Assembly: GCF_003318165.1 (NCBI RefSeq)
Contig: NZ_QOCB01000014.1
Span: 1 to 64,000, forward strand
Direction: 5' to 3'
Length of the DNA: 64,000 nucleotides
From: Psychromonas sp. B3M02
GTDB taxonomy: Bacteria > Pseudomonadota > Gammaproteobacteria > Enterobacterales > Psychromonadaceae
The translations under genes were made by a program, and so were the position numbers. Of this stretch, positions 2,307 through 51,797 are shown one piece after another (the first letter of the stretch is position 1; every line of letters begins with the position of its first letter). A model generated the notes under the pieces. It did no database searches and was not told where the DNA came from. It saw only the letters and a list, made by a program, of their open reading frames with translations.

Positions 2307-2337
2307 AAAAAAGGCCGAACTTCTAAAAGTTGGCCTT
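2307..2337 (-). terminator. Rho-independent terminator of the tandem-repeat lipoprotein gene
   Basis: On the minus strand AAGGCC plus AACTT pairs with AAGTT plus GGCCTT across a one-base bulge and a four-base loop, followed by a run of T. It lies 31 bases after the stop and separates this gene from the downstream lyase gene. The rest of the 2083-2367 gap shows no gene. Confidence 0.8.
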
Positions 2338-2367
2338 GATATAGTTTTATTAATTTTTTGTTACTTA

Positions 2368-12285: not shown

Positions 12286-12513
12286 TGATGTGCTCACTTA
12301 TAAAACATGAAAAAAACAGCAAAAGCTGTGCATAATTTAATATACCATTATAAATCATCTGGTTACTAACTAATGCTACCTAACAATGTTTTTATACTGA
12401 TAAATAATTTTTCTTGTACTGAATAACATTGCCAGTTGATATAAATGAAATAGCTGGATATACGTTATTCTGATCACTCATATAATTTTCGTAGCAGTTA
12501 AATTTATAGTGGC

Positions 12514-16710: not shown

Positions 16711-17262
16711 ATGTCTGTACAACAAGAGTTTGGTGGCGAATTAAGCGAAGAAGAGTTTCGTAAATTTACACTGTATACAACCCAAAGCAATAATTTTGAA
16801 GATGATAATAGCAGAGCTAAGATTTTAGGCTTTGTGAATGAACGCGTCAGGATTGCTCCCGGAGCAGTGGTTAGAATTGGTGATAACCAAATCGGTAAAT
16901 GTTCTTATGTTGGCTTATATAGCTATGTGAATGGTGATGTCAATATTGGAGAAAATGTATTAATCGGTCCACATGCCAGTATTGTTGCCTCTAATCATAT
17001 TTATTCTGTTGAGGATGATTTTTTTAGCGGCCGCAGCGATTTAAGCCAGGGTAAAGTCATCATTAAAGATGGTGTCTGGTTAACCTCTGGGGTGGTTATA
17101 ACACCTGGGGTGACTATTGGGCGATGCAGCTTAGTCTGCGCGAATTCAGTGGTCACAAGTGATGTTGATGATTATGCGATCGTGGGCGGCACACCGGCAG
17201 TCCCGTTAGGAAAGATAGACAGAGAAACAGGTCAATATACTTGGTTTAAACAGGAGAAATAA
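16711..17262 (+). CDS. Hexapeptide-repeat (left-handed beta-helix) acyltransferase
   Basis: A 183-residue protein of the LacA/Vat/xenobiotic acetyltransferase group. Imperfect hexapeptides run from about residue 47 to 150 (VRIAPGAVVRIGDNQIG, VNIGENVLIGPHASIV, VWLTSGVVITPGVTIG), and SNHIYS around residue 95 supplies the usual catalytic His. The end ...AIVGGTPAVPLGKI is the standard family C-terminus. It should transfer an acetyl or other acyl group from CoA. The stop is one base before the start of the exolyase gene, so the two are tightly coupled. An acyltransferase is an unexpected member of an alginate uptake operon; the acceptor is unknown. Confidence 0.85.
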   Translation: MSVQQEFGGELSEEEFRKFTLYTTQSNNFEDDNSRAKILGFVNERVRIAPGAVVRIGDNQIGKCSYVGLYSYVNGDVNIGENVLIGPHASIVASNHIYSVEDDFFSGRSDLSQGKVIIKDGVWLTSGVVITPGVTIGRCSLVCANSVVTSDVDDYAIVGGTPAVPLGKIDRETGQYTWFKQEK

Positions 17263-17263
17263 C

Positions 17264-20612: not shown

Positions 20613-20697
20613 AACAGGCTTGAATAATAGTTAATAACATATCATTAACTTTTTGAGTCTTGATATACAAAGGATTGCAACATTAAGAGAGGTTTAC

Positions 20698-24586: not shown

Positions 24587-25475
24587 TCAATCTACGCAAG
24601 GGTTACATGCTCATACTTGGTTGGAAGCGGCTACGGAATTAGAAGCTAGCGCAGCGACTTACGTTATTGTTACGCTGTTAGGCGCTGCAGGGTCTACACC
24701 CCGCGCTAGCGGTACTAAAATGGTGATCAGTGACGATAATATTTATGCCACCATTGGTGGTGGCCATCTTGAATTTAAAGCGATTGAGCATGCGCGTACT
24801 TTAATTCAGCGAGGTGAAAGTTGCCAAGAGGTTGAAAACCTTCAGCTTGGGGCAAGTTTAGGCCAGTGTTGTGGTGGCCAAGTGTTGGTTTTATTTGAAG
24901 TGTTTGCCAGTGATAAACTGCATTTGGATGTTTATGGAGCAGGGCATGTTGCCCATGCTTTAATACCTATTTTAGCGCAGTTACCGATCCAGATACGTTG
25001 GATAGATAGTCGAGCGGAACTGTTTCCTGAACAGATTCCTGCAAGCGTACAGAAAGTCATAGATGATGAACCCGTTGCACAGGTAAAAGCGGCGGCTAAC
25101 AACACCGCAACGCTGATTTTAACGCATAATCATCAATTAGATTTTGCGCTCTGCCAAGCGGTATTGAAACGTGATCAATCATTGTGGTTAGGGGTGATTG
25201 GCTCAGACACTAAAGCTAAAAAATTCCAATACCGTTTAGTGCAAAGAGGTTTCTCTGAGCAACAGATCGATAGCATGACGTGCCCCGTTGGACTAAGTGA
25301 AGTGAGTGGCAAATTACCCATGGAAGTGGCGGTTTCTATTGCAGGCCAATTAGTCGCTTTGTACCAAAGCTTACAAGATGATAAACCTAAACAAAAAGGT
25401 AAACAGTGGAAAGAGTTACAAGATAACTTAGTTCATTTAAGTCCTTTGCAGAGCAAAAAATCCAAAACTGGATAG
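24579..25475 (+). CDS. xdhC: XdhC, molybdenum cofactor insertion chaperone
   Basis: A 298-residue chaperone that binds and protects sulfurated molybdenum cofactor and inserts it into XdhB. The XdhC/CoxI N-terminal domain has VTLLGAAGSTPRASGTKMV and TIGGGHLEFKAIEHA. GASLGQCCGGQV is the conserved cysteine motif, and the C-terminal Rossmann part begins LDVYGAGHVAHALIPIL, with GVIGSDTKAKKF. It overlaps the end of xdhB by 8 bases. Its presence fits a bacterial-type XDH needing a dedicated chaperone. Confidence 0.95.
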   Translation: MLNQSTQGLHAHTWLEAATELEASAATYVIVTLLGAAGSTPRASGTKMVISDDNIYATIGGGHLEFKAIEHARTLIQRGESCQEVENLQLGASLGQCCGGQVLVLFEVFASDKLHLDVYGAGHVAHALIPILAQLPIQIRWIDSRAELFPEQIPASVQKVIDDEPVAQVKAAANNTATLILTHNHQLDFALCQAVLKRDQSLWLGVIGSDTKAKKFQYRLVQRGFSEQQIDSMTCPVGLSEVSGKLPMEVAVSIAGQLVALYQSLQDDKPKQKGKQWKELQDNLVHLSPLQSKKSKTG

Positions 25476-25518: not shown

Positions 25519-25760
25519 GGTATGATATTAGCTTTGTAACACCTTAATATTGAAATTTAATTTTTGATTGAGCTGGGGTGATGTTTTCATAATCATTTAA
25601 AGTTTTACTAAACAATTAGTTACATCGCTGTGGTAGGTTTAATTAATTTACTAAAGCCAAGATATGTTTTATCAATCATCACGTACTGCACTATCAAGGT
25701 GCTTTATATGGGCGGTTGACTTTTATCTCATTAAAAGTGAATCGTAAAAAAGGAACAGGA

Positions 25761-26261
25761 ATGAGTTTAGATACAATTAATAATGCTAATACGGATAAAG
25801 GCTTCGATATTTTTGAAAGTTGTTGTTGTTCACCAAACTGGATTAAAAAAATGATTCAGGCGACACCATTTGCTGATAAAGCCGCATTGTTAGCTGCCTC
25901 AGACAAGGCTTTCTCTGAATTAGATGAGCAAGATTATTTGATTGCCTTTCAAGGGCATCCACAAATTGGGGACCTCAATACACTCCATAAAAAATACGCT
26001 AATACATCGGGCACAGCGAGCCATGAACAATCTGGAATGTCGGTAGCAGAAAGTGACGTATTAGAAGAGATGGTGGCATTAAATAAAGCTTACCTAGATA
26101 AATTTGGTTTTATCTTTATTGTCTGTGCTTCAGGTAAAAGTGCTGTTGAAATGTTGGCATTGATTAAAGCAAGAATAGACAATGATCGTGCTACTGAAGT
26201 TGATATTGCGGGTCAAGAGCAAGCCAAAATTACTGCCATTCGCCTGGAGAAATTATTATGA
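25761..26261 (+). CDS. uraD: OHCU decarboxylase (2-oxo-4-hydroxy-4-carboxy-5-ureidoimidazoline decarboxylase)
   Basis: A 166-residue enzyme (HpxQ/UraD type) converting OHCU to S-allantoin, last step of urate breakdown to allantoin. Family motifs are FESCCCSPNWI, where other members have an F-x-x-x-C-x-S-x-W stretch, the catalytic His and Asp/Glu in FQGHPQIGDL, EQSGMS, and LNKAYLDKFGFIFIVCASGKSA. The open frame extends to a TTG at 25716, but AAGGAACAGGA directly precedes the ATG at 25761. Its stop overlaps the start of the hydroxyisourate hydrolase gene (ATGA). Confidence 0.93.
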   Translation: MSLDTINNANTDKGFDIFESCCCSPNWIKKMIQATPFADKAALLAASDKAFSELDEQDYLIAFQGHPQIGDLNTLHKKYANTSGTASHEQSGMSVAESDVLEEMVALNKAYLDKFGFIFIVCASGKSAVEMLALIKARIDNDRATEVDIAGQEQAKITAIRLEKLL

Positions 26262-26620
26262 ACCATAACCCTATTACAACGCATATTTTAGATTCTTCGC
26301 TAGGTAAACCTGCTGTGGGTGTCACTATTAAATTATTGGTTTTAAAAAACAATGAGTGGCAATTATTGTCATCCGCTGTGACCAATAGCGATGGGCGAAT
26401 TGATGGCTGGGAGCAAACTGATTGGTATCAGGATAAAGAGGTTGAAGCCCTTTTTGCGACTTACAAAATCTGTTTTGAGTTAGAAAGTTACTGGGAACAA
26501 CAATCGCTTTCTGCGTTCTACCCGAGTGCTGAGATTTGCTTTAGATTACAAGATGATCGCCATCATCATATCCCTTTATTATTATCGCCTTACAGTTATT
26601 CAACTTACCGCGGTAGCTAA
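26258..26620 (+). CDS. hpxT: 5-hydroxyisourate hydrolase (transthyretin-like)
   Basis: A 120-residue TRP-family enzyme hydrolysing 5-hydroxyisourate, the HpxO product, to OHCU. The N-terminal signature THILDSSLGKPAVGVTIKL and the C-terminal YSYSTYRGS are hallmarks separating it from true transthyretins. H-R-x-H residues of the active site are represented by His8, Arg-containing strands and the YRGS end. There is no periplasmic signal. It overlaps uraD by four bases, so the two sequential enzymes are co-translated. Confidence 0.93.
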   Translation: MNHNPITTHILDSSLGKPAVGVTIKLLVLKNNEWQLLSSAVTNSDGRIDGWEQTDWYQDKEVEALFATYKICFELESYWEQQSLSAFYPSAEICFRLQDDRHHHIPLLLSPYSYSTYRGS

Positions 26621-34592: not shown

Positions 34593-36032
34593 TTACTTAA
34601 CTAAACCAGCTTGCATTTGCTGTGTACTAGTACGCTCTTTAGACATTAATGTTCTATAGGTAATAGCAGCAATAAATCCACCAATAAAGATCGCATAGTT
34701 AGCTAAACCATCAATAAAGAAAGTCGCATAGACAGCGATCAGACCTGCAATGACTAATGCGTAAACACTCTTCATATTAACCCCATTTTGATACCAATAG
34801 ATACCGCTAGGCGATTCGGTATACAAAGAGTCGATATCAATATGGCCTTTCTTGATGAAGTAATAATCAACAATAATAATCCCATATAACGGCCCGATCA
34901 TCGCGGCTAATACATCAACAGTATAATGAATAACTTCAGGGTTATTAAACAGGTTCCAAGGTGTTAACAGTACTGAACCAAAGGCGGCAATAAAACCACC
35001 TGTTTTAAAGCTAATTTTTTGTGGTGATACATTAGAAAAATCGAAGGCGGGAGCAACAAAGTTAGCAACAATATTGATGCCCACAGTGGCGAAGATAAAG
35101 GTTAATGCGCCAAGAATCGTGATCATTCCTGAATCCAGTCGTTTTACTGTTTCAACCGGGTCAGTAATCATTTCGCCAAACACAGGAATAGAGGCTGATA
35201 CAATCAAGACACTAAATAGAGAGAAGATAATAAAGTTAACGGGTAAACCTAAGACATTACCGATTTTTAATTGCTTATAACTGGTGCAATACCGAGAGAA
35301 ATCACTAAAATTTAATGTCGGACCTGCAAAATAACCTGCTACTAAACAGGCCGCAATAAACATTTGAATAATAGCATCCCAGCCAACCAACTCTTCAGAG
35401 CTCAGGTTAAAGCTAATATTTTCCCAACCAGCTAAATTAACTAAGTAAACACATAGTGCAAACATGGCGATATAGATTGCCGGACCTGACCAGTCGATGA
35501 CCTTACGTATCATATCCATACCAAACATAAAGATAATGGCTTGTAAGATCCACATCGAGCTAAAACCAATCCAACCTAAGTAGGATAACCCTAGGAATTC
35601 ACTGTCAGCTAAGCTTTCTGCACTAGGGAAAAAGTACAGAATCAAAATAATAAATGCACTAGAAGCAAGGTAAGTTTGAATACCGTACCAAACGACCGCA
35701 ATCAAACCACGAATAACGGCAGGAATATTTGCACCAAACACACCAAATGACATACGTGCCACCACAGGAAAGGGGGCACCACATTTTTGTCCTGGTTTCC
35801 CCATTAAGTTTGCAAATAGTAAAACAATAGAAATACCTACCAGTAAACTGATAAATACTTGGATACCGTTTAATCCCAGTGCAAATAAACTGGCGGCGAA
35901 CACATAACCACCAACACTATGTACGTCTGACATCCAGAACGCAAAAATACTGTACCACCCCCATTTTTGTTGTTTTTCTGGTAATAGATCCTCATTGCTA
36001 AGGCGTGGGCTTATTGTTAATTTATCTGACAT
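34593..36032 (-). CDS. NCS1-family permease, probable allantoin transporter
   Basis: A 479-residue symporter of the nucleobase-cation-symport 1 family (PucI, AllP and Mhp1 group) with 12 hydrophobic segments. WGWYSIFAFWMSDVHSVGGY near the N-terminus holds the conserved Trp and substrate-loop residues. The open frame extends to a TTG at 36044, but GGAGG lies seven bases before the ATG at 36032. It is divergent from the GntR-hpxA-puuE operon, and a GTATAC-centred palindrome lies 21 bases upstream. Allantoin is the natural substrate given the neighbours, but hydantoins or purines remain possible. Confidence 0.87.
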   Translation of the reverse strand: MSDKLTISPRLSNEDLLPEKQQKWGWYSIFAFWMSDVHSVGGYVFAASLFALGLNGIQVFISLLVGISIVLLFANLMGKPGQKCGAPFPVVARMSFGVFGANIPAVIRGLIAVVWYGIQTYLASSAFIILILYFFPSAESLADSEFLGLSYLGWIGFSSMWILQAIIFMFGMDMIRKVIDWSGPAIYIAMFALCVYLVNLAGWENISFNLSSEELVGWDAIIQMFIAACLVAGYFAGPTLNFSDFSRYCTSYKQLKIGNVLGLPVNFIIFSLFSVLIVSASIPVFGEMITDPVETVKRLDSGMITILGALTFIFATVGINIVANFVAPAFDFSNVSPQKISFKTGGFIAAFGSVLLTPWNLFNNPEVIHYTVDVLAAMIGPLYGIIIVDYYFIKKGHIDIDSLYTESPSGIYWYQNGVNMKSVYALVIAGLIAVYATFFIDGLANYAIFIGGFIAAITYRTLMSKERTSTQQMQAGLVK

Positions 36033-36052
36033 GACAACCTCCAATGTTATTT

Positions 36053-36309: not shown

Positions 36310-36990
36310 GTGAATAAAATGTTGAGTGATGAAGCCATCTATAAAAAAATATTGAAGTCGATTGTTGAGCATCAATTACCACCCGGGGCACGATTACCTG
36401 AAGATAAGTTATCAGAAGCCTTTGGTCGAAGTCGCACCAGTATTCGAAAAGTACTACAGCGTTTGGCCTTAGAGCGAATTGTCACCATTGAGCCTAATAA
36501 AGGAGCACATGTAAATCGCCCTAGTGAACAAGAAGCACAAGAGATCTTAGATAGTCGCATCATGCTAGAGCCATTATTAATCCCTGAAATAATGAAATAT
36601 TGGTCTAAAGCTAATTCCAAATATTTTCGCGCTATGCTCAAGGAAGAGAAACAAGCTGAAGCAAATGAAGATCAAGCTGCGTTAATTCAATTAACTGCAC
36701 AGTTTCATTATGAGTTAGCTGCATTATCAGATAACTCTGTGATGGCTGACTTTATTCAACAGCTATGTTATCGCTCATCATTAATCATTGCAGTTTTTGG
36801 CTCTCGCCATAGTGTGAGCTGTGATTGCGGTGACCATTTAGAGTTGATTGAGTTAATGGATAATGAACAAAATAAACAGGCGCAGGATTGGATGAAACAA
36901 CACTTAATTCATATTAAGTCATCTTTGAAATTAGGTGTAAGCGACGGCCAAAAAATCAATTTTCAACAACTGTTTGCTAATTCGGAGTGA
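36310..36990 (+). CDS. GntR-family (FCD type) regulator, HpxS-like
   Basis: A 226-residue regulator. The N-terminal winged helix (about 5-75) reads IYKKILKSIVEHQLPPGARL, then PEDKLSEAFGRSRTSIRKVL and LERIVTIEPNKGAHV. The C-terminal FCD domain runs from about 85 to 215, with ILDSRIMLEPLLIPEIM and FHYELAALSDNSVMADFI. The GTG at 36310 has GAGGGA six bases upstream; an ATG follows three codons later. It heads an operon with allantoin racemase and allantoinase, the same order as Klebsiella hpxSAB. Three palindromes in the upstream region are its likely operators, giving autoregulation and control of the NCS1 permease. Confidence 0.87.
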   Translation: MNKMLSDEAIYKKILKSIVEHQLPPGARLPEDKLSEAFGRSRTSIRKVLQRLALERIVTIEPNKGAHVNRPSEQEAQEILDSRIMLEPLLIPEIMKYWSKANSKYFRAMLKEEKQAEANEDQAALIQLTAQFHYELAALSDNSVMADFIQQLCYRSSLIIAVFGSRHSVSCDCGDHLELIELMDNEQNKQAQDWMKQHLIHIKSSLKLGVSDGQKINFQQLFANSE

Positions 36991-36993
36991 TCA

Positions 36994-37755
36994 ATGAAAA
37001 TCAACTTAATTAACCCTAATACCTGTATCGGTATGACAGAGAAAATAGCCGCTTCTGCACGATCAGCTGCACTGTCCAGTACTGATATTATTGCATCTAT
37101 GCCAACACATGGCCCCGAAAGCATTGAAAGTGCTTTTGATGAGGTGATCGCCTCAGCGGCTTTGTTAGATGTTATTAAACAGGGAGAGGAGAATCAAGTT
37201 GATGCACATATCATCGCCTGTTTTGGTGACCCCGCTTTAGATGCGGCTAGAGAGATTGCCACCGTGCCTGTGATTGGCATAGCTGGTGCTGCTTTTCAGC
37301 TCGCTAGTTTAGTGGCTTATCGATTTGGTGTAGTAACAACCATGACACGTACTTTACCAACCAGTGAACACTTGCTGCAGCGTTACGGTTATCAACATTT
37401 ATGCAGTGGTGTGAGAGCCACGGATATTGCTGTATTAGATCTTGAAAATGTCGCCGATGATGTTTATCGTGAATTAAAAGCAGAATGTGAAAGAGCCTTA
37501 TTTGAAGATGGTGCAGAGGCATTAGTATTAGGCTGCGCGGGTATGTCTGATTTAACTGAAAAATTGTCAGCAGATCTTAAGGTGCCAATCATTGATGGTG
37601 TTTGTGCTGCCGTTAAGTTAGCGGAATCATTACACCAATTAGGATTAAAGACCTGCAAGATAGGGCAGTATGGTTCACCTTTAGATAAAGCCTTTGATGG
37701 GCGTTATCAACACTGGAATAGTAATAAAAATATAACAAAGGAGCGTTACATATGA
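36994..37755 (+). CDS. hpxA: Allantoin racemase (Asp/Glu/hydantoin racemase family)
   Basis: A 253-residue cofactor-independent racemase that interconverts S- and R-allantoin, supplying the R form to PuuE-type allantoinase. It begins MKINLINPNTCIGMT, typical of HpxA and hydantoin racemases. The two catalytic cysteines are in IIACFGDPALDAAR and LVLGCAGMSD. It starts three bases after the GntR gene and overlaps the allantoinase start by ATGA. Gene order S-A-B as in Klebsiella supports allantoin over hydantoin as the substrate. Confidence 0.9.
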   Translation: MKINLINPNTCIGMTEKIAASARSAALSSTDIIASMPTHGPESIESAFDEVIASAALLDVIKQGEENQVDAHIIACFGDPALDAAREIATVPVIGIAGAAFQLASLVAYRFGVVTTMTRTLPTSEHLLQRYGYQHLCSGVRATDIAVLDLENVADDVYRELKAECERALFEDGAEALVLGCAGMSDLTEKLSADLKVPIIDGVCAAVKLAESLHQLGLKTCKIGQYGSPLDKAFDGRYQHWNSNKNITKERYI

Positions 37756-38681
37756 GTAAAGATAATCCTCGTGATTATAGAGGTTACGGTAGGCATGATG
37801 TGCCCGATGCAAATTGGCCGAATAAAGCAAAAATTGCGGTGCAATTTGTTTTAAATTTTGAAGAAGGGGGGGAAAACTGCGTATTACATGGTGATACCCA
37901 CTCAGAAACGTTTCTATCTGAAATTGCTGGTGCAGAGGCTTATCCTGAACGTCATATGAGCATGGAATCTTTATATGAATATGGATCAAGAGCCGGTGTT
38001 TGGCGTATTTTAAATGAGTTTAAAGCGCGCAGTTTACCTTTAACTATTTTTGGTATTGCCACTGCATTACAACGTAACCCAGACGTTACACAAGCCATTA
38101 TCGAAGATGGGCATGAGATTGCCTGCCATGGTTTAAAGTGGATTCATTACCAGCATATGTCTATCGAAGAAGAGCGAGAGCATATGACACAAGCCCTAGA
38201 TATTATTGAAAATTTAACCGGGAACCGCCCAATGGGGTGGTATACAGGTCGTGATTCACCAAACACTCGTGGGTTAGTGGCTGAACAACAAGGTTTGCTT
38301 TATGACTCTGATTATTACGGCGATGACTTACCCTTTTGGATGCAAGTACCTAGTTCAGAAGCAGGTAAAACACGCCCTCATTTAGTGATCCCTTATACAC
38401 TTGATAATAATGATATGCGTTTCTCATCACCATACGGCTTTAGTCATGGGGAAGAGTTCTTTCAATATCTAAAAGATAGTTTTGACTGTTTATACGCAGA
38501 AGGTAATGAGAAACCAAAAATGATGTCGATTGGTTTACATTGTCGTGTGATTGGTAAACCTGGTCGTTTTGTGGCACTGAAAAAATTCTTAGATTATGTT
38601 CAATCTCATGATGATGTGTGGATTGCGCGTCGTGATGAAATAGCGCAACACTGGATTGAAAATCATCCTTGCCCTGAATAA
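37752..38681 (+). CDS. puuE: Allantoinase, polysaccharide-deacetylase-like (PuuE/HpxB)
   Basis: A 309-residue cofactor-independent allantoinase opening the ring of allantoin to allantoate. It belongs to the NodB/polysaccharide deacetylase fold. The family start RDYRGYGRHDVPDANWPN, LNFEEGGENCVLHGD, IACHGLKWIHYQHM and the GWYTGRDSPNTRGLV segment are all typical of PuuE. It has about the length of the Pseudomonas PuuE and Klebsiella HpxB proteins. The ATGA overlap with hpxA indicates coupling. Confidence 0.95.
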   Translation: MSKDNPRDYRGYGRHDVPDANWPNKAKIAVQFVLNFEEGGENCVLHGDTHSETFLSEIAGAEAYPERHMSMESLYEYGSRAGVWRILNEFKARSLPLTIFGIATALQRNPDVTQAIIEDGHEIACHGLKWIHYQHMSIEEEREHMTQALDIIENLTGNRPMGWYTGRDSPNTRGLVAEQQGLLYDSDYYGDDLPFWMQVPSSEAGKTRPHLVIPYTLDNNDMRFSSPYGFSHGEEFFQYLKDSFDCLYAEGNEKPKMMSIGLHCRVIGKPGRFVALKKFLDYVQSHDDVWIARRDEIAQHWIENHPCPE

Positions 38682-38705: not shown

Positions 38706-38742
38706 AAAAGGCGCTTAAATAAAATATTTAAGCGCCTTTTTT
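38706..38742. terminator. Bidirectional terminator between puuE and allC
   Basis: A perfect 16-bp stem, with GGCGCTTAAATA on one side, around a three-base loop, with A and T runs on its two flanks. It serves the two convergent ureide operons. Confidence 0.92.
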
Positions 38743-38759
38743 ATAATATGAACTATTTT

Positions 38760-39992
38760 CTATTTCGAAAGTTTTTTAATCATATCAACTAAGCAATCTA
38801 ATGCGACTGCTACGTCTGATTCAATGACTTGTTCTTTAGGGTTGTGGCTAATCCCTTTTTCACAACGTACAAATAACATCGCGATATTAGTAATGTTTGT
38901 CATTACCATGGCATCATGTCCTGCACCACTTGCAAGAAAGCACGGTGTTTTTTGAGTATGTTGCTGGACGATTTCACCCCATTGTTTTTGCAAGGTGTCA
39001 TCACATAATACTGCTTCTGCTTGATAGAGCTTTTCATGGCTGAGTTGTAATTGACGCTGTTCAGAAATATGCGCTAAGTCTTTCAACAGCTGTTCACAGC
39101 AACGCTCTAAAGTTGACTGAGACTGACTACGAATATCGACGGTAAAGTGTACTTCGCCAGCAATAACGTTCACTGCTGATGGAAATACATCACAACGGCC
39201 TACTGTCGCTACAATTTGGTTCTCAAAGGCAAACTGTTCAATATGCGAAATCATTTGAGCTGCACCTGACATAGCATCTTTACGAAGTGCTAGCGGCACT
39301 GTACCAGCATGTCCTGCCATTCCTTTAAGCTTAAATTGGTAACGTTTTGCACCGGCGATACCGGTCACCACACCAACAGGTAAATCTTGATCTTCTAATA
39401 CAGGACCTTGTTCAATATGCACTTCTAAATACGCTAATGTATCCTCTGTGTTTTTTTGGTCTTTACCTGCTAATTCAGGATCTAAACCAAAATCACGCAT
39501 TGCTTGTGCCATGCTGATACCTTGTGCATCTTCAATTGCTAACCAATCAGATTGGAAACACCCTGCAACAGCACTTGAGCCAATTAATGTTGTGTTAAAT
39601 CGTGTACCTTCTTCATCGGCAAAAGCCACAATATCAACGTGGAAGGGTAGTGTTTCACCTTGTAGTTGATACATGGCTTCCAGTGCGAGTAATACACCAA
39701 GGTTACCGTCATATTTACCCGCATTTGCTACGGTATCACTGTGTGAACCGATTAAGAGAGTTGGCATGGTTGGGTTAGGGGAGACTTTACGTCCCCATTG
39801 ATTCCCCACACTGTCTTCCCAAGTGGTTAGGCCTGCTTGCTCCATCCACTCTGCTAGTTGTTGATGCGCTAACTTATGCTCAGGCGTTAAGTAAGCTCTT
39901 AATAAACCGTCAGGCATCGCACTAAAGCTGGCTAACTTATCTGCCCATTGCATGATTTTTGCAGCACTTTGCTGAGTATTGTTTATTGACAT
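38760..39992 (-). CDS. allC: Allantoate amidohydrolase
   Basis: A 410-residue M20-family amidohydrolase (AllC/HpxK) converting allantoate to ureidoglycine, CO2 and ammonia. Metal ligands appear in GSHSDT, KYDGNLG, ADEEGTRF and LEVHIEQGP, with GAGHDAM and a C-terminal ISHNPKE. Beta-ureidopropionases and carbamoylases share this layout, but its position directly after the ureidoglycine aminotransferase gene, 17 bases apart, fixes allantoate as the likely substrate. GGAG precedes the ATG. It is the last gene of the RpiR-headed operon. Confidence 0.9.
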   Translation of the reverse strand: MSINNTQQSAAKIMQWADKLASFSAMPDGLLRAYLTPEHKLAHQQLAEWMEQAGLTTWEDSVGNQWGRKVSPNPTMPTLLIGSHSDTVANAGKYDGNLGVLLALEAMYQLQGETLPFHVDIVAFADEEGTRFNTTLIGSSAVAGCFQSDWLAIEDAQGISMAQAMRDFGLDPELAGKDQKNTEDTLAYLEVHIEQGPVLEDQDLPVGVVTGIAGAKRYQFKLKGMAGHAGTVPLALRKDAMSGAAQMISHIEQFAFENQIVATVGRCDVFPSAVNVIAGEVHFTVDIRSQSQSTLERCCEQLLKDLAHISEQRQLQLSHEKLYQAEAVLCDDTLQKQWGEIVQQHTQKTPCFLASGAGHDAMVMTNITNIAMLFVRCEKGISHNPKEQVIESDVAVALDCLVDMIKKLSK

Positions 39993-40009
39993 AAATGCTC
40001 CTACTACCG

Positions 40010-41242
40010 TTAGACGCTAAAGTATTGCATAGCCGTGGTGACTGCTTGGCCTGGATTAATTTTCACTTTATGTTTGAGTAATACAGACTCCAATGCTGCA
40101 AGCGTAGTGAGCACACACTCTTGTCTCGCGTTAAAGCCCATGGTGCCGATACGCCAAATTTTACCGTGTAACGGACCAAATGAAGTGCCGATTTCAATAC
40201 CAAAGCACAGGAGTAATTCTTGACGTACTTTATCGCCGTCTAACCCTTCAGGAATGTAAACGCCTACTACATTATTCATTTTGTAAGCTTGGTTACCAAA
40301 CAAGGTTAATCCCATTGCTTGTAAACCTTTTGCCATTGCATCACCTGCTTGCTTATGACGAGCAACAACATTGCCACTGCCTTCTTCTAAGAAGATGCGT
40401 GCACATTCGCGAGCCGCATATAACATGCTGGTCGCTTCAGTGTGGTGGTTTAAACGCTCTGGTCCCCAGTAGTCCATTATCATGGCTAGGTCGAAATAGT
40501 TAGACTGGATAATGGCATCACTGCCTGCTGTATGATGGTCTGCGCGGATACCTGCTTCAATATGCTTGCGTCGTGTGATCACCTCTGCACATTTATCACT
40601 TAGTGTGATAGGTGCGCTACCTGATGGACCACCTAGACATTTTTGTAACCCTGCTGATACTGCATCTAATTTCCACTCATCTATTTTCAGTTCATTACCG
40701 GCGATTGAAGCGGTAGCATCACAATAAAACAACACATCATAACGATCACAAATCTCACCGATTTCTGCTAATGGTTGGTTCATGGTCGTTGATGTGTCAC
40801 CTTGTACCGTTGCTAGCATTTTAGGGCCAAACTCTTTAATCGCTTTTTCTACTAATTCTGGCGGGCACACTTCACCCCACTCGATATCAATGGTTTTAAC
40901 CACGGCGCCAACACGTTGCGCAATTTCACACAATAGATGGCCAAAACGCCCCATTACTGGTATCAGTACCTTATCGCCTGGTTGAAGTACTGACACTAAT
41001 ACTGCTTCGATGCCTGCGCGTGCAGTACCATCGACTAACATTGTCTGTTTATTTTGTGTTTCAAATACCTCTCGGTATAACGATTGCACCTGGTTCATGT
41101 AACCTGTCATCACTGGATCGTATTGACCAATTAATGCCGATGAAATCGCTTGATGCACTCGTGGGTAGGCATTGATTGGACCTGGCCCCATTAATAGACG
41201 AACGGGTGGATTTAGCGTTTCAAATAAAGTGTTAGTTGTCAT
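40010..41242 (-). CDS. pucG: Ureidoglycine-glyoxylate aminotransferase (PucG/HpxJ type)
   Basis: A 410-residue class V PLP aminotransferase that moves the amino group of ureidoglycine to glyoxylate, giving oxalurate and glycine. It begins LMGPGPINAYPRV, has TMLVDGTARAGIEAVL, the PLP Asp stretch FYCDATASIAGNEL and the PLP lysine in SAGLQKCLGGPSG. The frame runs to 41326, but GGAGA precedes the ATG at 41242 and the extra N-terminus lies inside hpxW. It overlaps the end of hpxW by 11 bases. Related alanine-glyoxylate aminotransferases are excluded mainly by context. Confidence 0.9.
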   Translation of the reverse strand: MTTNTLFETLNPPVRLLMGPGPINAYPRVHQAISSALIGQYDPVMTGYMNQVQSLYREVFETQNKQTMLVDGTARAGIEAVLVSVLQPGDKVLIPVMGRFGHLLCEIAQRVGAVVKTIDIEWGEVCPPELVEKAIKEFGPKMLATVQGDTSTTMNQPLAEIGEICDRYDVLFYCDATASIAGNELKIDEWKLDAVSAGLQKCLGGPSGSAPITLSDKCAEVITRRKHIEAGIRADHHTAGSDAIIQSNYFDLAMIMDYWGPERLNHHTEATSMLYAARECARIFLEEGSGNVVARHKQAGDAMAKGLQAMGLTLFGNQAYKMNNVVGVYIPEGLDGDKVRQELLLCFGIEIGTSFGPLHGKIWRIGTMGFNARQECVLTTLAALESVLLKHKVKINPGQAVTTAMQYFSV

Positions 41243-42809
41243 GATTGTCTCCAAGTAAGCTTTGCCCATCACTACGCGGATCGCTAGTTGCCTGCGCTTT
41301 ACCGTGTTTATTGAGCATAATGGCACCAGCGTGCCCCATTAATTCATTATTATCGGCAACGGCTGTAACGTCATGCCCTAAGGCTTTGAGTGTTGCGCCA
41401 TATTGCTTATAAAGTTGGTTTTCTAAACGTAGATTGTTGGTTGTATCGCCCCAAGTCCTGCCTAATAGCCAACGTGGTTTCGCCACGGCACTGGATAGAC
41501 TTTGGCCTTGATAAAGGTAACGACTAAAGAGGCAAGCTTGCGTTTGTGGTTGACCTTCTCCACCCATCGAGCCATAGACAATACGTCTACCATCATGCAA
41601 TTCTGCATAGGCAGGATTCAGGGTATGAAAAGGCTTTTTACCCGGGGCTAACACATTATGGTGATTAGCGTCTAGGGTGAAACTTTTGCCTCGGATGTTC
41701 CAAGTAATACCTGAGTTAGGTAAGACAACACCTGAACCAAATTCCCAGTAAATACTTTGTATAAAGCTGACCATAGTGCCGTATTGATCACAGGCCCCCA
41801 TCCAGACGGTATCACCTGGTTTTGCTATGTGTGGCCAAGGTAATGCTTTGTCTAAAGCAATGTTATTAACACATTGATCGATCACTGAGTCTTTTAACCA
41901 ATCTTGTAATGGCTGATTTAAGCAATCTGGGTCGGTAATTTGCTGGTCACGGATAATAAAAGCTTGTTTTGTTGCTTCAACTAGCAAATGAATATGTTCA
42001 ACTTCGCTACTAATTTTATCTGCTAATCGGTCGTAAATGGCTAAAATCAATAAAGAGGCTAAGCCTTGTGTTGGGGCATCTAAATTGTATAAATGTCCTT
42101 TTGAAATATCCGTGGTTAAAGGTGTTATCACTTTAGCTTGATGTTGATTAAAATCGACTAAGGTGATTGGACTACCTGCTGCTTTTAAGTCTGCTGCCAT
42201 TTGTTCAGCTAATTGACCGCGATAAAAGTCTTCTAAGCCGGCATCTGCTAAGTGTTTAAAAGTGTTAGCTAAAGCTGGATTGGTAACCATATCACCGACT
42301 TTTAAAGTCTTACCTTGCTTTAAATAAGTTGCTGCAAAGGTTTCTAGTTGCTGTAGTCTCCCCAGTGTTTTTTCACTGGCATCCACTAGACTTTGTGTTA
42401 CTTCGATACCCTGTTGTGCTGCATCTATAGCCGGTTGTAATAGTTTGTTAAGTGTTAACTCTCCACCATTAATCTCTAAAGCTGCTTGCCAACCAGAGAT
42501 AGTGCCGGCCATGGTTAGCGCTGCTGAGCCACCACTTTCAGGGAGTTCACTAGCCTGTTGACGATAATGGTCGGCATCAATATTAACAGCGGCTGCGCCA
42601 CAGGCATCAATGGCAACAGGTTTCTCGCCGGCTTTACTGATTAACCAGAAACCGTCACCGCCGATACTGTTCATGTGCGGGTATTGCACTGACACCATTG
42701 CTGCCGCAGCAACCATAGCTTCGCTGGCTGTTCCGCCTGCGTCGAGTATCGCTTGTCCAGCTGCTGCTGCTTTATGATGAGGAGCGGTAAAAGAGGTTTG
42801 ATAAGTCAT
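41232..42809 (-). CDS. hpxW: HpxW-like oxamate amidohydrolase (gamma-glutamyltransferase family)
   Basis: A 525-residue Ntn-hydrolase of the gamma-glutamyltransferase family. It lacks a signal peptide, unlike periplasmic GGT. It opens SFTAPHHKAAAAGQAILDAG, and the probable autocatalytic site is the Thr of PGDTVWMGACDQYGTMVSF, matching the T of the GGT small subunit. GSMGGEGQPQTQACLFSRYL is the usual late motif. Klebsiella HpxW hydrolyses oxamate to oxalate and ammonia. The ATG at 42809 overlaps the amidase stop by one base; the longer frame reaches 42896 inside the amidase gene. Oxamate as substrate is inferred from family and operon. Confidence 0.85.
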   Translation of the reverse strand: MTYQTSFTAPHHKAAAAGQAILDAGGTASEAMVAAAAMVSVQYPHMNSIGGDGFWLISKAGEKPVAIDACGAAAVNIDADHYRQQASELPESGGSAALTMAGTISGWQAALEINGGELTLNKLLQPAIDAAQQGIEVTQSLVDASEKTLGRLQQLETFAATYLKQGKTLKVGDMVTNPALANTFKHLADAGLEDFYRGQLAEQMAADLKAAGSPITLVDFNQHQAKVITPLTTDISKGHLYNLDAPTQGLASLLILAIYDRLADKISSEVEHIHLLVEATKQAFIIRDQQITDPDCLNQPLQDWLKDSVIDQCVNNIALDKALPWPHIAKPGDTVWMGACDQYGTMVSFIQSIYWEFGSGVVLPNSGITWNIRGKSFTLDANHHNVLAPGKKPFHTLNPAYAELHDGRRIVYGSMGGEGQPQTQACLFSRYLYQGQSLSSAVAKPRWLLGRTWGDTTNNLRLENQLYKQYGATLKALGHDVTAVADNNELMGHAGAIMLNKHGKAQATSDPRSDGQSLLGDNHDN

Positions 42810-44005
42810 CAGTTCACTTCTCCTTGTACTAACTGTAAACCAGTTGTGATTAAGTCCGTTTCTGTATTGGCTAAGCCCATTAATGAGAAACCACAAGGGC
42901 CTTCTTCTAAACCTGCCATTGGCAAGTGCAATTGTGGTAAACCGCTTAAACCTGCAATACTGGTTAATCCCATTAATTGCGATCGATAATCAGCCAATTT
43001 TTCACCAGTAAGGGTTAAAGAAGGAGCACCTGAAGGAGTTGTCGGTAGTACAAGTAGCCCATTCAGTTGCTGCAAATAATCAGTCACTTTTGTAGTGAAA
43101 TCTTGTTGTTGTACTTTCGCTTGCTTATATTCTTCTGTGGTGATGGTACGAGCCCACTCAACACGTAACATGATAGAAGGATCTAAGGACTCACCGTATT
43201 GGGTTAACCATTGGTTGTGTTCTTGAATGATTTCATAACCTTGAATGGTACGAAATAATAGGCTCAAGTCATCCAGTGTGATGGCTAATTCAGTTAACAA
43301 ATTACAGCCGAGTAACTTAATAGACGATTTTTTACACCAAGCTTGTAATCTATTTAAACGCTCTTCACTGAGTGACTTAGCTAAGGTGTCATCAAGATAA
43401 ATATGTGAAGCTACTTGTCCTGTGTTGCTATCTTCTGAAAGTGTTTTAAATACTGCTTGTAGCAGTGATAAATCTCGACTGAAAATCCCGGCAGTATCAA
43501 AGCTTGTTGATAAAGTAAATGCGTTGCTTAAATCCAACTTACCCAGCGTTGGACGTAATCCAAATAATCCACAGTAACTTGCAGGTACGCGCACAGAGCC
43601 ACCTGTGTCAGTGCCAATGGAAAAGTCTGCATGTTTACTTGCTACAGCTACTGCGCTGCCACTAGATGAACCACCAGGCAGACAGTTTGGCGCTGCCGGA
43701 TTAGTCGGGGTGCCGTAGTGAATATTTTGTCCATTTAAGCTATAAGCAAGCTCATCGGTCTGAACGCGACCAACACAATCAGCTCCCTGTGCTAACAGCT
43801 TGTCGATTAAAGGTGATGTCTTAGCTGCTTTGTCATGGCTACTTAACCAAGCTGGGTTACCAGCTCCAGTGACATAACCTTCGACATCAAATAGATCTTT
43901 AAATACAAAGCTTTTACCGGTTAACTTCCCTTGTGTGGTAGCGGCTAGCAATTCAGGGCCTTGTAGGCAATAAACGCTACTATCTCTTGTTGTGTTGTTA
44001 CTCAT
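42809..44005 (-). CDS. Amidase-signature family hydrolase (HpxY-like?)
   Basis: A 398-residue amidase-signature enzyme with an intact Ser-Ser-Lys triad: Lys in KSFVFKDLFDVEG, the cis-Ser in IGTDTGGSVRVPASYCG and Ser in LPGGSSSGSAVAVAS. AMI enzymes hydrolyse amide bonds; in Klebsiella hpxWXYZ an amidase (HpxY) accompanies HpxW. It lies between the SBF-like carrier and HpxW, overlapping the latter by one base. Because no FdrA-type oxamate carbamoyltransferase is seen, this amidase could hydrolyse oxalurate or a related ureide. That is a hypothesis. Confidence 0.8.
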   Translation of the reverse strand: MSNNTTRDSSVYCLQGPELLAATTQGKLTGKSFVFKDLFDVEGYVTGAGNPAWLSSHDKAAKTSPLIDKLLAQGADCVGRVQTDELAYSLNGQNIHYGTPTNPAAPNCLPGGSSSGSAVAVASKHADFSIGTDTGGSVRVPASYCGLFGLRPTLGKLDLSNAFTLSTSFDTAGIFSRDLSLLQAVFKTLSEDSNTGQVASHIYLDDTLAKSLSEERLNRLQAWCKKSSIKLLGCNLLTELAITLDDLSLLFRTIQGYEIIQEHNQWLTQYGESLDPSIMLRVEWARTITTEEYKQAKVQQQDFTTKVTDYLQQLNGLLVLPTTPSGAPSLTLTGEKLADYRSQLMGLTSIAGLSGLPQLHLPMAGLEEGPCGFSLMGLANTETDLITTGLQLVQGEVN

Positions 44006-44017
44006 GTCCAGATCCTT

Positions 44018-45016
44018 CTAAAGTGAGGAGTTAGTTGCTGGTTCAGCTTGTGCGGCATAACGACTGGCTAAAATGGCACAGTAAAAAATCTGAATTGGGT
44101 GATACAGCATGATTGGCAATAGGATCATGCCAAGCTTAGGGTCACTGCCAAAGATAACGGTGGCCATCGGAATCCCCGCCGCTAGGGTTTTTTTAGTACC
44201 ACAAAAAACGGCGGCCACTTCATCGGCTAAGGCAAACTGGCTACGACGCGCACCCCACTGAATCAGGTGAACCATGATCAGCAAGATAGCGACACATAGC
44301 ACAAATGAAGTGATGAGCATTTCTAGTGAGAATGAACTCCAAATACCATTAACAATTGAGTTACAGAAGGCGTTATACACAATTAATAAAATCACATATT
44401 TATCGACTTTATTAACAACGGCTTTATGTCTCTCGGCAAACTTCAATAATAGTGGACGTGCTAACTGACCTAAAATCATAGGGAGAAGCAACAGTTTTGA
44501 GATGGAAATAATAGACGCCATTAAGTCCAGTTCAACCCCTTCAAATCCCATAAATAATTGAATTAAAAGTGGGGTAATAAAGATGCCTAATATGCTTGAT
44601 AATGACGCATTAAAAATAGCCCCGGGGACATTACCTTTACCCACACTAGTCATAGCCACTGAAGAAGAGATAGTACTTGGCAAAACAAACAGATAACAAA
44701 AACCAAAAGCGAGTGCCGCTGGCATGTACGCTAAGAATAGATCTCCGAATACGACCCACAATAAAGGGTAAGCAACAAAGGTCGCCACCTGAATGTAGAT
44801 GTGCATGCGCCAGTTACTTATTCCGGCCTTAATAGCAGCAGGTGATAACCCTAAACCATGTAGAAAGAAGACAATCGCGACACCGATTCCTGTCAGTTTG
44901 TCGAGATGAATAACGCCCCCACTTTTACCAATATCGGCACTGACTGTCGCGAGTGCTATCGCGATCACCATACCAACTAAAAACCATTCTTTTTTAAGCT
45001 TATTTATAATATTCAT
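44018..45016 (-). CDS. SBF-like (bile acid:sodium symporter, YfeH type) carrier
   Basis: A 332-residue inner-membrane protein with about ten hydrophobic segments, of the SBF-like group (PF13593, YfeH). GVAIVFFLHGLGLSPAAI, YLFVLPSTISSSVAMT, GNVPGAIFNASLSSILGIF and FCGTKKTLAAGIPMA are its diagnostic stretches. It sits 12 bases before the amidase gene and 37 after the RpiR gene. Substrates of YfeH-type carriers are poorly known. Here it might move a ureide end product such as oxalurate, oxamate or oxalate across the membrane; this is inferred from position only. Confidence 0.82.
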   Translation of the reverse strand: MNIINKLKKEWFLVGMVIAIALATVSADIGKSGGVIHLDKLTGIGVAIVFFLHGLGLSPAAIKAGISNWRMHIYIQVATFVAYPLLWVVFGDLFLAYMPAALAFGFCYLFVLPSTISSSVAMTSVGKGNVPGAIFNASLSSILGIFITPLLIQLFMGFEGVELDLMASIISISKLLLLPMILGQLARPLLLKFAERHKAVVNKVDKYVILLIVYNAFCNSIVNGIWSSFSLEMLITSFVLCVAILLIMVHLIQWGARRSQFALADEVAAVFCGTKKTLAAGIPMATVIFGSDPKLGMILLPIMLYHPIQIFYCAILASRYAAQAEPATNSSL

Positions 45017-45053: not shown

Positions 45054-45872
45054 TTACTCTAATTCATTGAGATTAGCGTAATTGGCACTTATTTTACTGC
45101 TTACTTTAGTAGCGTTTCCTTTTAAAAGTTGGTAAGTATTATTCACTAGATGAGCGATTAAACTACTCGGTACAGCATAGCTATCTAGGGGTGTTTCGTT
45201 ATTCATGTGGCACACTAAAAGGTGCGTTGCTTGTTCGGCGTATTTTTGTCCGGATTGATCTGTGATCAGTAGCACTTTATTGTGCTGTAATTGTTCAAGT
45301 AATTTAGAGAATTTTTTTACTCGACGACGAATGCCGATTATGACCACGAAGTCATCTTCATCGATAGACGCTAAATCTTCCCCTATTGTCTGCCCAGGGA
45401 CTGGTAATAGTTCTACATGTCCTCTGCATTGCATCAGTTGCTGACGCAAATGCATGGCTAATGGATAACTATTGCGGTAGCCAATTACTTTTATGCGCGG
45501 GGCTGTGGCAAGTAGTGTTGTAATAGGTTGTAAAGAGGTACTTTCTAACTGCTTCTTTAGTTGTTGTAGTCCTTGGATATCTTGATGAAAATCACAATCC
45601 TCTTGAATCGCTGTCAAAACAGGCTCACCACTTTCTCGCACTTCTAATAACTCATTACGCAAAGAGACATGGTCCGCATAACCTAAACGTCGTATGAAAC
45701 GGCTTACACTGGTCTTTGAGACTGCGCAAGATTCCGCTATTTCATTAGTAGACATAATCAATACTTTTTCTGGGTTAAGCAGTAAATAATCGGCTAAGCG
45801 ACGACTATTTGCTGTTAAATCAGCATAATGGCGATTAATACGATCTGTGAGAGAGTGGTTATTGTTTGTCAT
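45054..45872 (-). CDS. RpiR-family regulator of the ureide operon
   Basis: A 272-residue regulator with an N-terminal RpiR helix-turn-helix (about 1-78, with NSRRLADYLLLNPEKVLIMS and EIAESCAVSKTSVSRFIRRL) and a C-terminal SIS sugar-isomerase-like domain (about 110-250, with RIKVIGYRNSYPLAMHLRQQ and DFVVIIGIRRRVKK). It heads the minus-strand operon RpiR-SBF-amidase-hpxW-pucG-allC. A pair of matching sites upstream, repeated before the NCS2 permease, suggests it controls both units and itself. SIS domains in this family usually bind phosphosugars; the ligand here may be a ureide or glyoxylate-related compound. Confidence 0.87.
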   Translation of the reverse strand: MTNNNHSLTDRINRHYADLTANSRRLADYLLLNPEKVLIMSTNEIAESCAVSKTSVSRFIRRLGYADHVSLRNELLEVRESGEPVLTAIQEDCDFHQDIQGLQQLKKQLESTSLQPITTLLATAPRIKVIGYRNSYPLAMHLRQQLMQCRGHVELLPVPGQTIGEDLASIDEDDFVVIIGIRRRVKKFSKLLEQLQHNKVLLITDQSGQKYAEQATHLLVCHMNNETPLDSYAVPSSLIAHLVNNTYQLLKGNATKVSSKISANYANLNELE

Positions 45873-46116: not shown

Positions 46117-46332
46117 TGTTTAAGGGCAATATATGGCGGTTATTTGAGCGCTATTATGATTTTTGAATAGAGGCTATATAAGGTGTGTTTATTAATGTAT
46201 TTCAATAGTATATTGAAGTTTATCTGTCGATTTAAGTTATAAAATAAGTGCTCTTCATGGCGTTTTTATATTCACTGCATATGTCAGTTGAGCAAATTCG
46301 AATTAAGTATTTATATTCAAGTAGGTCTTACG

Positions 46333-50493: not shown

Positions 50494-51648
50494 TTAACCT
50501 AGCGGACCACCTATAATGGTTTCCTTGAGACCTGCCATAATGTTATCACCAGTCTCTTGCTTAAGTTCTTTATACCAGGCTTGAGTTATTTGCATATCTT
50601 CACCATGAGTCACTTCACAACGTTTACGCGCTTTTAATACTAAGCCTTTCGCACGTTGATTACGTTGAGATTCATAATCAGATAAAGCAGCATGGATATC
50701 TTTTGTTGCTGAGAAGGCTTGCCCAAGTACCACAGCATCTTCCATTGCCGAGCAACCACCTTGACCAATATCTGGTGTAGTAGGATGCGCAGAGTCGCCT
50801 AATAGCGCAATACGTCTATCAACATAGGTTGTGAATGGATCGGCATCATGGATCTCAACGCGATTGGTGGTGGATGGATCAATTGCTTTAATCAATTTTT
50901 GTATTGGCTCAGCCCAATCGGTGAAATATCGAGTTAGATCTTCAGTTACTGTGCTACGATCTTGTGGTAAACCTGAAGGTAAAGGAACATCAAAAAAGAA
51001 ATAGAAGCGATTATCGGAGATTGGCATTAACGAAATACGTTTTCCATCTCCTACAAAGGTTGTCCATTGATCAACGGGAGCGATTGATGGGTCGGTGTCA
51101 ATTAAACCATTCCAGTTAACATAACCCGCATAGCGACGCTCTACCTTACGTCCTAACACAAAAGAGCGTGCGACAGAGTTTGCACCGTCGGCAGCAATCA
51201 TAAAATCACCATGTGCTACGCTACCATCAGTGAAGTAAGCGCTAACACCTTTCTCATCTTGTGTGATGCGCTCAATACGTTTATCGAATTGTATTTTTTC
51301 TTTGCCCCAGTAATCGATCATCATTGATTGCAAATCTGCACGAGAAACTGGGCATGGACGTTCACCTACTGCTTCAATTAACGGAGCTAGACTAAACTGA
51401 GTGAGTACTTCAGCCGTTTTACCATCTTGGTAAGCCATATTTAGCATTGGCCCACCGAGTTTGTCCATAATATGCCCCATGCCGAGGTGGTTCATACATT
51501 TCACACCATTTGACCAAACAGAGATAGCAGCGCCTACTGGCTTGATCTCTTTTACAGCTTCAAATATTTCACACTCAATACCTTGTTTTTTTAATGATAC
51601 AGCAGCTGAAACGCCGCCAATTCCTGCACCTATTATTAATGCTTTCAT
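50494..51648 (-). CDS. hpxO: FAD-dependent urate hydroxylase
   Basis: A 384-residue flavoprotein monooxygenase that turns urate into 5-hydroxyisourate with NADH and O2, replacing uricase. The length equals that of Klebsiella HpxO as I recall it, and long stretches match: YEAVKEIKPVGAAISVW type, RRYAGYVNWNGL, DQWTTFVGDGKR, NRFYFFFDVPLPSGL and LLGDSAHPTTPDIGQGG. The FAD site is GAGIGG (7-12), and the substrate region retains Arg in GDGKR and Tyr in FYFFFDV. The TTG-initiated frame to 51666 is rejected because AAGGGA precedes the ATG at 51648. The usual neighbours are 24 kb away, at uraD-hpxT. Confidence 0.94.
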   Translation of the reverse strand: MKALIIGAGIGGVSAAVSLKKQGIECEIFEAVKEIKPVGAAISVWSNGVKCMNHLGMGHIMDKLGGPMLNMAYQDGKTAEVLTQFSLAPLIEAVGERPCPVSRADLQSMMIDYWGKEKIQFDKRIERITQDEKGVSAYFTDGSVAHGDFMIAADGANSVARSFVLGRKVERRYAGYVNWNGLIDTDPSIAPVDQWTTFVGDGKRISLMPISDNRFYFFFDVPLPSGLPQDRSTVTEDLTRYFTDWAEPIQKLIKAIDPSTTNRVEIHDADPFTTYVDRRIALLGDSAHPTTPDIGQGGCSAMEDAVVLGQAFSATKDIHAALSDYESQRNQRAKGLVLKARKRCEVTHGEDMQITQAWYKELKQETGDNIMAGLKETIIGGPLG

Positions 51649-51797
51649 CTTATTTCCCTTTGTCAATGCGTTGCTATCGTCAACGATTAATACTGAGTAA
51701 TTACCATATTTGGCTATTTAAAATGCCTTATCAGGCTGTCAATATAGTAAGTACTGCAACGCTCATGCCAATTAGTAAGTTGTTCTAAACCATTTAC
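51649..51797. other. hpxO leader and promoter region
   Basis: TTGGCA and TATATT on the minus strand lie 19 bases apart, a poorly spaced promoter candidate. No gene is seen. Confidence 0.3.

Follow-up and report, generated by a model that had tools for sequence, protein, structure and literature searches.

A candidate oxalurate amidohydrolase in the ureide operon of Psychromonas sp. B3M02

The window analyzed here, a stretch of 64,000 nucleotides from Psychromonas sp. B3M02 (contig NZ_QOCB01000014.1, positions 1 to 64,000), carries on its minus strand a compact operon for ureide breakdown that encodes an RpiR-type regulator, an SBF-like carrier, an amidase, HpxW, a ureidoglycine-glyoxylate aminotransferase (UGXT) and AllC, in this order. 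The operon contains no oxamate carbamoyltransferase, and the amidase appears to be the best candidate for the enzyme that fills the gap. Judging from sequence comparison and from analogy with related enzymes, this amidase probably hydrolyzes oxalurate to oxamate, CO2 and ammonia without a gain of ATP, whereupon HpxW would make oxalate.

Genes of the operon

The minus-strand open reading frames (ORFs) are located at 38760-45016, where a preliminary description of this DNA had placed them, and the run extends further, to the RpiR gene that ends at 45872. The assignment of AllC, a PucG-type UGXT, HpxW, the amidase and the SBF-like carrier in that description was likewise confirmed. The genes between 38760 and 45872 form a single operon, in which neighbors overlap or are at most 37 bases apart; the stop codon of the amidase gene and the start codon of HpxW have one base in common (TGATG), and UGXT starts inside the 3' end of HpxW. 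Because of this tight spacing, there is no room in the operon for HpxX or HpxZ, the companions of HpxY in the Klebsiella-type hpxWXYZ cluster. The 3' end of the operon is followed by a terminator-like hairpin (38706..38740, minus strand; 16-pair stem, 3-base loop) at the site where PuuE and AllC converge, which is a consensus match only, in a window with 7 terminator-like sites vs 8.4 expected; promoter-like sites in the window show no excess (18 vs 26.4 in shuffled sequences).

HpxW (41232..42809, minus strand) belongs to the gamma-glutamyltranspeptidase superfamily and is of the oxamate amidohydrolase type. Its best solved relative is 5hft, which we take to be the Klebsiella HpxW and which is matched over both subunits (chains A and B, E-values of 1e-72 and 2.4e-69; 248.6 and 237.4 bits), followed by 2nlz (195.9 bits, 9.3e-57), 2i3o (8.5e-53) and the gamma-glutamyltranspeptidase 2e0w (6e-41). 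With 5hft far ahead of 2e0w, the possibility that this is an ordinary gamma-glutamyltransferase was rejected. The predicted nucleophile is T333 (initiator Met uncounted), which is paired with residue 1 of chain B of 5hft and conserved throughout an alignment of 6 rows. A review reports that the Klebsiella HpxW acts as an amidohydrolase on oxamate (PMC5270733).

The aminotransferase gene (40010..41242, minus strand) encodes a PucG/HpxJ-type UGXT, with 3nnk (605.2 bits, E-value 5e-181) and 3isl (PucG; 437.0 bits, 6e-130) as the closest solved structures, followed by 1vjo (271.2 bits). No NCBIfam model is matched over its cut-off, and an alternative assignment, to the alanine- or serine-glyoxylate type, was rejected because the nearest solved relatives (3nnk and 3isl) are UGXT. 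The last gene (38760..39992, minus strand) encodes an AllC-type allantoate amidohydrolase (NF006775, 524.9 bits, cut-off 479).

The amidase (398 amino acids; 42809..44005, minus strand) belongs to the PRK08310 branch (NF006169, 408.5 bits, cut-off 391), and three operon amidases from Marinomonas and Alteromonadaceae score over the same cut-off as well (434.7, 420.7 and 427.6). Both AtzE-type models are matched far under the cut-off (NF006631, 182.6 vs 461; TIGR02715, 170.5 vs 425.75), compared with scores of 673-787 for true HpxY proteins. A tree of 55 proteins separates 10 HpxY rows (100/98) from 44 PRK08310 rows (97/99), each set forming a group of its own; the operon amidases group together with those of two genomes discussed below (G329 and G751) and one amidase from another context (94/99). 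The tree includes 10 of the 13 HpxY candidates, the other three (L310, L311 and L313) having a stop in the extended reading, and the alignment includes 44 of 77 operon amidases in addition to that of the window; of the 33 omitted, one is truncated where its contig ends and five contain a stop in the reading used. Given the low AtzE scores and the separate tree group, the amidase was rejected as a plain HpxY of the AtzE family.

The predicted catalytic triad, K36, S113 and S137, presumably the Lys, cis-Ser and Ser of amidase-signature enzymes, is invariant in all 29 operon amidase rows; R281 is also invariant in these rows, as it is in 15 other PRK08310 rows and 10 HpxY rows. An AlphaFold2 (AF2) model of the amidase, with a mean predicted local distance difference test score (pLDDT) of 94.5, is predicted to adopt a complete amidase-signature fold. 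Comparison of this model using VIA-align retrieved 2dc0 (Z 46.3), malonamidase E2 (46.0), a GatFAB subunit (45.1) and AtzE (6c62, 45.0) as the nearest structures, with allophanate hydrolase (4cp8) at 43.5. In the open-licence literature, we found no paper that assigns this amidase a role. One Psychromonas genome contains a second copy (L033, G006:C1:3623653-3624837) in which, according to the alignment, the predicted nucleophile serine is replaced by glutamate, so that this copy is probably inactive.

The absence of carbamoyltransferases and the linkage of the amidase

The preliminary description held that neither an oxamate carbamoyltransferase nor a carbamate kinase is encoded in the window. 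This is indeed the case, and the gap is genome-wide. A search for AllFGH-like genes was run through AllG (PF06545), which has no match in the 99.99% complete genome of Psychromonas sp. B3M02 and is likewise missing from the 23 other Psychromonas genomes, with a positive E. coli control; of the 60 genomes covered by this search, 4 do have AllG. FdrA itself was not searched genome-wide but its partner AllG was, and on the strength of the absence of AllG, a carbamoyltransferase encoded elsewhere in the genome was rejected. Carbamate kinase (TIGR00746, E-value of 1e-40) has no match in this genome either, with E. coli and L. lactis as positive controls.

A contig scan for HpxW yielded 195 confirmed loci, of which the best 80, from Psychromonas, Vibrio, Alteromonas relatives and Marinomonas, were compared, and whole genomes were searched for 50 of these loci and for the genome in question, 51 altogether. 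AllG and over-cut-off HpxY (NF006631; control genome G228 positive) were found in 0 of the 51, and carbamate kinase over the cut-off in 4, this genome not among them; thus, the absence is genomic and general for this type of operon. The amidase is carried by 48 of the 51 genomes, all except those of loci L108, L122 and L146, and neither AllG nor over-cut-off HpxY occurs in any of the 48. Klebsiella likewise lacks AllFGH and carbamate kinase, according to an excerpt of a 2024 paper (PMC11326118). The operon is therefore a variant of the known HPX pathway, and the gap itself has a Klebsiella precedent.

Among the 80 HpxW loci, the amidase is the immediate upstream neighbor of HpxW on the same strand in 77. 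UGXT and AllC are found within the operon in 78 loci, including all 77 with the amidase, so that the amidase is present in 77 of the 78 UGXT-bearing loci. The two HpxW loci that lack UGXT (L108 and L122) also lack the amidase; genome-wide, at an E-value of 1e-10, there is no match to the amidase for L108 and a single 79-bit match for L122. L108, a Vibrio mimicus contig, has a lone HpxW, with no other ureide genes in the locus and, by eye, TetR-like and MFS-like ORFs alongside; this gene was possibly transferred or rearranged. Within the genus Psychromonas, 12 of the 24 genomes have all three of the amidase, HpxW and UGXT, and 12 have none of them; among the latter, two are less than 90% complete, and among all 24, apart from the lineage of Psychromonas sp. 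B3M02 itself, three are (G001, G004 and G013). Lower-scoring hits on other amidases or on Ggt relatives were disregarded in this count. In operons of Alteromonas and Marinomonas, AllC is followed by a gene for a protein of 121-122 amino acids (L118:6629-6994 and L126:15140-15508), which is weakly cupin-like in L118 (26.8 bits, just under the Pfam cut-off) and has no match in L126.

The slot of the amidase is occupied by different genes in different genomes. At an E-value of 1e-110, UGXT was detected in 25 of 398 sampled genomes. In 11 of these 25, the amidase is in the UGXT locus, adjoining HpxW in 9; the remaining two, G329 and G751, have the order UGXT-AllC-RpiR-amidase, with no HpxW within the 17.5-kb stretch, although G329 has HpxW elsewhere in the genome. 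In 11 other UGXT genomes, all from one family (enterobacterial-type), HpxW is followed by HpxY, and HpxZ is present in 11 of 11; the gene order in these loci is that described for Enterobacteriaceae in an excerpt of an AtzE study (PMC6219798). HpxY was checked with hidden Markov models in 6 of the 11 loci, all over the cut-off, and HpxX was confirmed over the cut-off in one, L314. The amidase alignment matches 45 genomes at an E-value of 1e-60, none of which are the eleven HpxY genomes, G748 or G742. In G748, HpxY-like and HpxZ-like genes are located 6-7 kb from UGXT, and in G596, the amidase and HpxW are on a different contig from UGXT. In the class-level sample, G228 has the order PuuE-UGXT-AllC-HpxW-HpxY along with an HpxZ-like gene and a weak AtzG-like ORF, the HpxX candidate (23.1 vs a cut-off of 24). 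G272 has AllC-AllG-FdrA-UGXT convergent with HpxW, with AllG and FdrA over the cut-off, and G152 carries, beside UGXT, a fragment of FdrA and a carbamate kinase that passes the NF009007 cut-off but not the TIGR00746 one. A further apparent swap, G050 (AllG and a 41% HpxW), was dropped because the HpxW reading contains a stop and the genome has no UGXT match. Taken together, the loci with the amidase, HpxY-HpxZ and AllG-FdrA indicate that three different enzyme sets accompany UGXT and HpxW.

These replacements bear on the possibility that the roles are reversed, that is, the amidase hydrolyzes oxamate and oxalurate is cleaved by HpxW or another enzyme. Malonamidase E2, whose substrate is the half-amide of a small dicarboxylate and resembles oxamate closely, is among the best structural matches of the amidase (Z ~46) and is similarly a compact amidase-signature enzyme, with PDB titles that name malonamate and malonate; it differs in its substrate, the identity to the amidase is 20%, and we know of no purine context for it. 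In G272, however, the slot is held by AllG-FdrA, and AllFGH converts oxalurate to oxamate, as stated in an excerpted paper (PMC11326118). Combined with the reported oxamate amidohydrolase activity of the Klebsiella HpxW (PMC5270733, in part), this makes the reversal improbable.

The proposed route from oxalurate to oxalate

In the route that we consider probable, AllC would convert allantoate to ureidoglycine, which UGXT would transaminate to oxalurate. The amidase would then strip ammonia from the terminal carbamoyl group of oxalurate, yielding N-carboxyoxamate; by analogy with AtzE and allophanate hydrolase, this is the most likely chemistry. N-carboxyoxamate would lose CO2 to give oxamate, for a net reaction of oxalurate + H2O -> oxamate + CO2 + NH3 that yields neither carbamoyl phosphate nor ATP, and HpxW would convert oxamate to oxalate and ammonia. 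The absence of carbamate kinase from the genome fits the lack of ATP gain. The ATP-free bypass proposed in the preliminary description thus holds up to the extent that the amidase, which tracks UGXT and takes the HpxY slot in a genome devoid of carbamate kinase, is the best candidate; the gap that it would bridge, however, is not peculiar to this operon, given the Klebsiella case (PMC11326118, in part).

The known systems frame this proposal. AllFGH of E. coli, together with the carbamate kinase AllK, performs the same conversion of oxalurate to oxamate, but these proteins are unrelated to the amidase and produce carbamoyl phosphate, and AllG and carbamate kinase are absent from the genome analyzed here. 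The Klebsiella-type hpxWXYZ cluster, with an AtzG-like HpxX, an AtzE-like HpxY and an AtzH-like HpxZ, resembles the operon in combining UGXT, AllC, HpxW and an amidase-signature enzyme, as well as in lacking AllFGH (PMC11326118, in part). Unlike that cluster, the operon encodes an amidase from a separate branch, contains neither HpxX nor HpxZ and has a different gene order. HpxY of the Klebsiella type is termed oxalurate amidohydrolase in an excerpt of a 2025 paper (PMC12625717), and in the literature found, its oxalurate activity is a label rather than a measurement. AtzE and allophanate hydrolase share the amidase-signature fold and triad with the amidase and deaminate small carboxylated ureides at their terminal carbamoyl group, but they represent another branch with another substrate, and AtzE needs AtzG (PMC6219798). 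Excerpted text of the AtzE study indicates that AtzE deaminates the terminal carbamoyl of 1-carboxybiuret, after which AtzH, which is HpxZ-like, appears to decarboxylate the product (PMC6219798). Two PRK08310 relatives also adjoin HpxZ-like genes, in G596 (L276:7990-8391; 195.9 bits, HpxZ cut-off 135), with HpxW and TauE nearby, and in G436 (L273:9599-9970, by tblastn). These neighbors fit an N-carboxylated product in the PRK08310 branch, too.

Alternatively, the amidase could cut the oxalyl-nitrogen bond to produce oxalate and urea, with urea passing to urea carboxylase and allophanate hydrolase and HpxW relegated to a side role. Contig C66 of the same genome (L327, 7752-14699) encodes urea carboxylase (1837.7 bits, cut-off 1303.85), allophanate hydrolase (829.1, cut-off 487), UAAP1 and UAAP2, so urea should be usable, and in G329 and G751 the amidase and UGXT occur without an adjoining HpxW. 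This gene set (L327, G000:C66) is that of a urea- or guanidine-type route. Under the urea-forming scheme, however, HpxW, with its reportedly oxamate-hydrolyzing Klebsiella relative (PMC5270733), would be redundant directly after the amidase in 77 of 80 loci; G329 still has HpxW elsewhere; and the HpxZ-like genes next to two PRK08310 amidases fit terminal deamination better. We therefore consider urea formation unlikely.

Several observations weigh against assigning oxalurate cleavage to the amidase. L146 (Alteromonadaceae bacterium M269) has RpiR, HpxW, UGXT and AllC but no AllG and no over-cut-off HpxY, and its genome contains just two, weak matches to the amidase (116.5 and 99.4 bits); with this gene set, which includes no candidate for oxalurate cleavage, either there is another way to carry out the step or the L146 operon is incomplete. 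In the 20-kb locus of G742, UGXT is accompanied by neither the amidase nor HpxY-HpxZ nor AllG-FdrA. The co-occurrence of the genes is clustered by descent. Among 20 PRK08310 loci inspected, 13 have neither UGXT nor HpxW within ~8 kb, although an AllC-like gene occurs in 2 of these 13. The residues invariant in the operon amidases are largely common to PRK08310 amidases of other contexts and so provide no specificity signature. In the structural comparison, many amidases score about equally (malonamidase E2, AtzE, GatA and allophanate hydrolase lie within ~3 Z units), so that no substrate is singled out. The amidase is also the fastest-changing protein of the operon, with a mean identity of 67.9% vs 89.8% for UGXT across 8 Psychromonas loci. 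Finally, neither the window nor any locus among the 80 with HpxW contains an HpxZ-like gene (the genome outside the window was not searched for HpxX or HpxZ); accordingly, decarboxylation would be spontaneous or done elsewhere.

The retention of UGXT and HpxW in L146, the PRK08310 amidases of other contexts and the lack of a specificity signature are also what would be expected if the amidase acted on another ureide or a by-product, with an unrecognized enzyme handling oxalurate. The linkage of the amidase to UGXT in 77 of 78 UGXT-bearing HpxW loci, along with its replacement by HpxY-HpxZ or AllG-FdrA elsewhere, makes such a substrate hard to credit. Thus, hydrolysis of oxalurate by the amidase is the reading that we favor. 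We infer the substrate of the amidase, the bond that is cut, the route of CO2 loss, and the cargo and direction of the carrier; our confidence in the exact bond and the carrier cargo is lower than in the action of the amidase on oxalurate.

Carriers, surrounding genes and the fate of oxalate

The SBF-like carrier (44018..45016, minus strand; PF13593, 329 bits) is a candidate exporter that probably exports oxalate. Near HpxW, 21 of the 80 loci have an SBF-like carrier, 55 a TauE/SafE carrier, 4 neither and none both. In G329 and G751, the amidase is followed by an AEC-type carrier (PF03547). Examples of these interchanged carriers are L118:3258-4076 and L266:9549-10451. Oxalyl-CoA decarboxylase over the cut-off was found in 0 of the 51 genomes (one control genome was positive), and other oxalate routes were not searched; in 24 of the 51, the genome analyzed here included, the model yields matches of 206-226 bits that are taken for acetolactate synthase. 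The carrier most likely exports the end product, oxalate, an argument that is weaker than that for the amidase because other routes of oxalate degradation were not part of the search. In 8 of 20 loci of the class-level sample (L202 and L204-L210), HpxW lies beside a TauE/SafE gene without UGXT nearby; in these, HpxW and the exporter may serve another oxamate-producing pathway.

The operon starts with the gene for the RpiR/SIS-domain regulator (45054..45872, minus strand; PF01418 and PF01380), and 65 of the 80 related loci have an RpiR gene on the strand of HpxW and at most 6.5 kb upstream of it. Convergent to AllC is a divergent allantoinase unit on the plus strand, which consists of a GntR/FCD regulator (36310..36990; PF00392 and PF07729), an Asp/Glu/hydantoin racemase-family protein (36994..37755; PF01177) and the PuuE allantoinase (37752..38681; TIGR03212, 494.3 bits, cut-off 424.6); next to it, on the minus strand, is an NCS1-family, allantoin-permease-like permease (34593..36044; TIGR00800 and NF008476, both under the cut-off). 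The window further encodes the FAD-dependent urate hydroxylase HpxO (50494..51651, minus strand; NF033623, 599.9 bits, cut-off 500), the xanthine dehydrogenase genes XdhA, XdhB and XdhC (20653..25475, plus strand; TIGR02963, TIGR02965 and TIGR02964, all over the cut-off), OHCU decarboxylase and 5-hydroxyisourate hydrolase (25716..26620, plus strand; NF010372/TIGR03180 and TIGR02962, over the cut-off), as well as purine-type permeases. With xanthine dehydrogenase, XdhC, HpxO, hydroxyisourate hydrolase, OHCU decarboxylase and PuuE all encoded, the window holds a route from xanthine to oxalurate.

Two other regions of the window can be mentioned. A 521-amino-acid protein with GNAT and nitrilase (CN_hydrolase) domains (46288-47853) is encoded adjacent to the operon; of 11 other Psychromonas loci, 4 have it close to the operon as well. 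The regions 328-3768, 8191-12297 and 16711-19486 contain lipoprotein-like and large ORFs, some of which are polysaccharide-lyase-like by eye; the three ORFs scanned (2371-3768, 8191-12297 and 17264-19483) have no NCBIfam match at an E-value of 1e-20.

The oxalurate-cleaving step of purine breakdown is poorly characterized, and a one-gene enzyme without partner subunits would make this step directly assayable. We tentatively propose that the conversion of oxalurate to oxamate has been solved at least three times, by AllFGH with carbamate kinase, by HpxXYZ and by the single-gene PRK08310 amidase, and that it is coupled to dedicated exporters of the end product, interchangeably recruited from the SBF-like, TauE/SafE and AEC-type families, such that marine bacteria would discharge purine carbon as oxalate. 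If the role suggested here for the PRK08310 amidase is correct, it would represent an uncharacterized enzyme activity that fills a gap in marine purine catabolism with an ATP-free route, and marine Vibrio, Alteromonas, Marinomonas and Psychromonas would be predicted to release oxalate when growing on purines.

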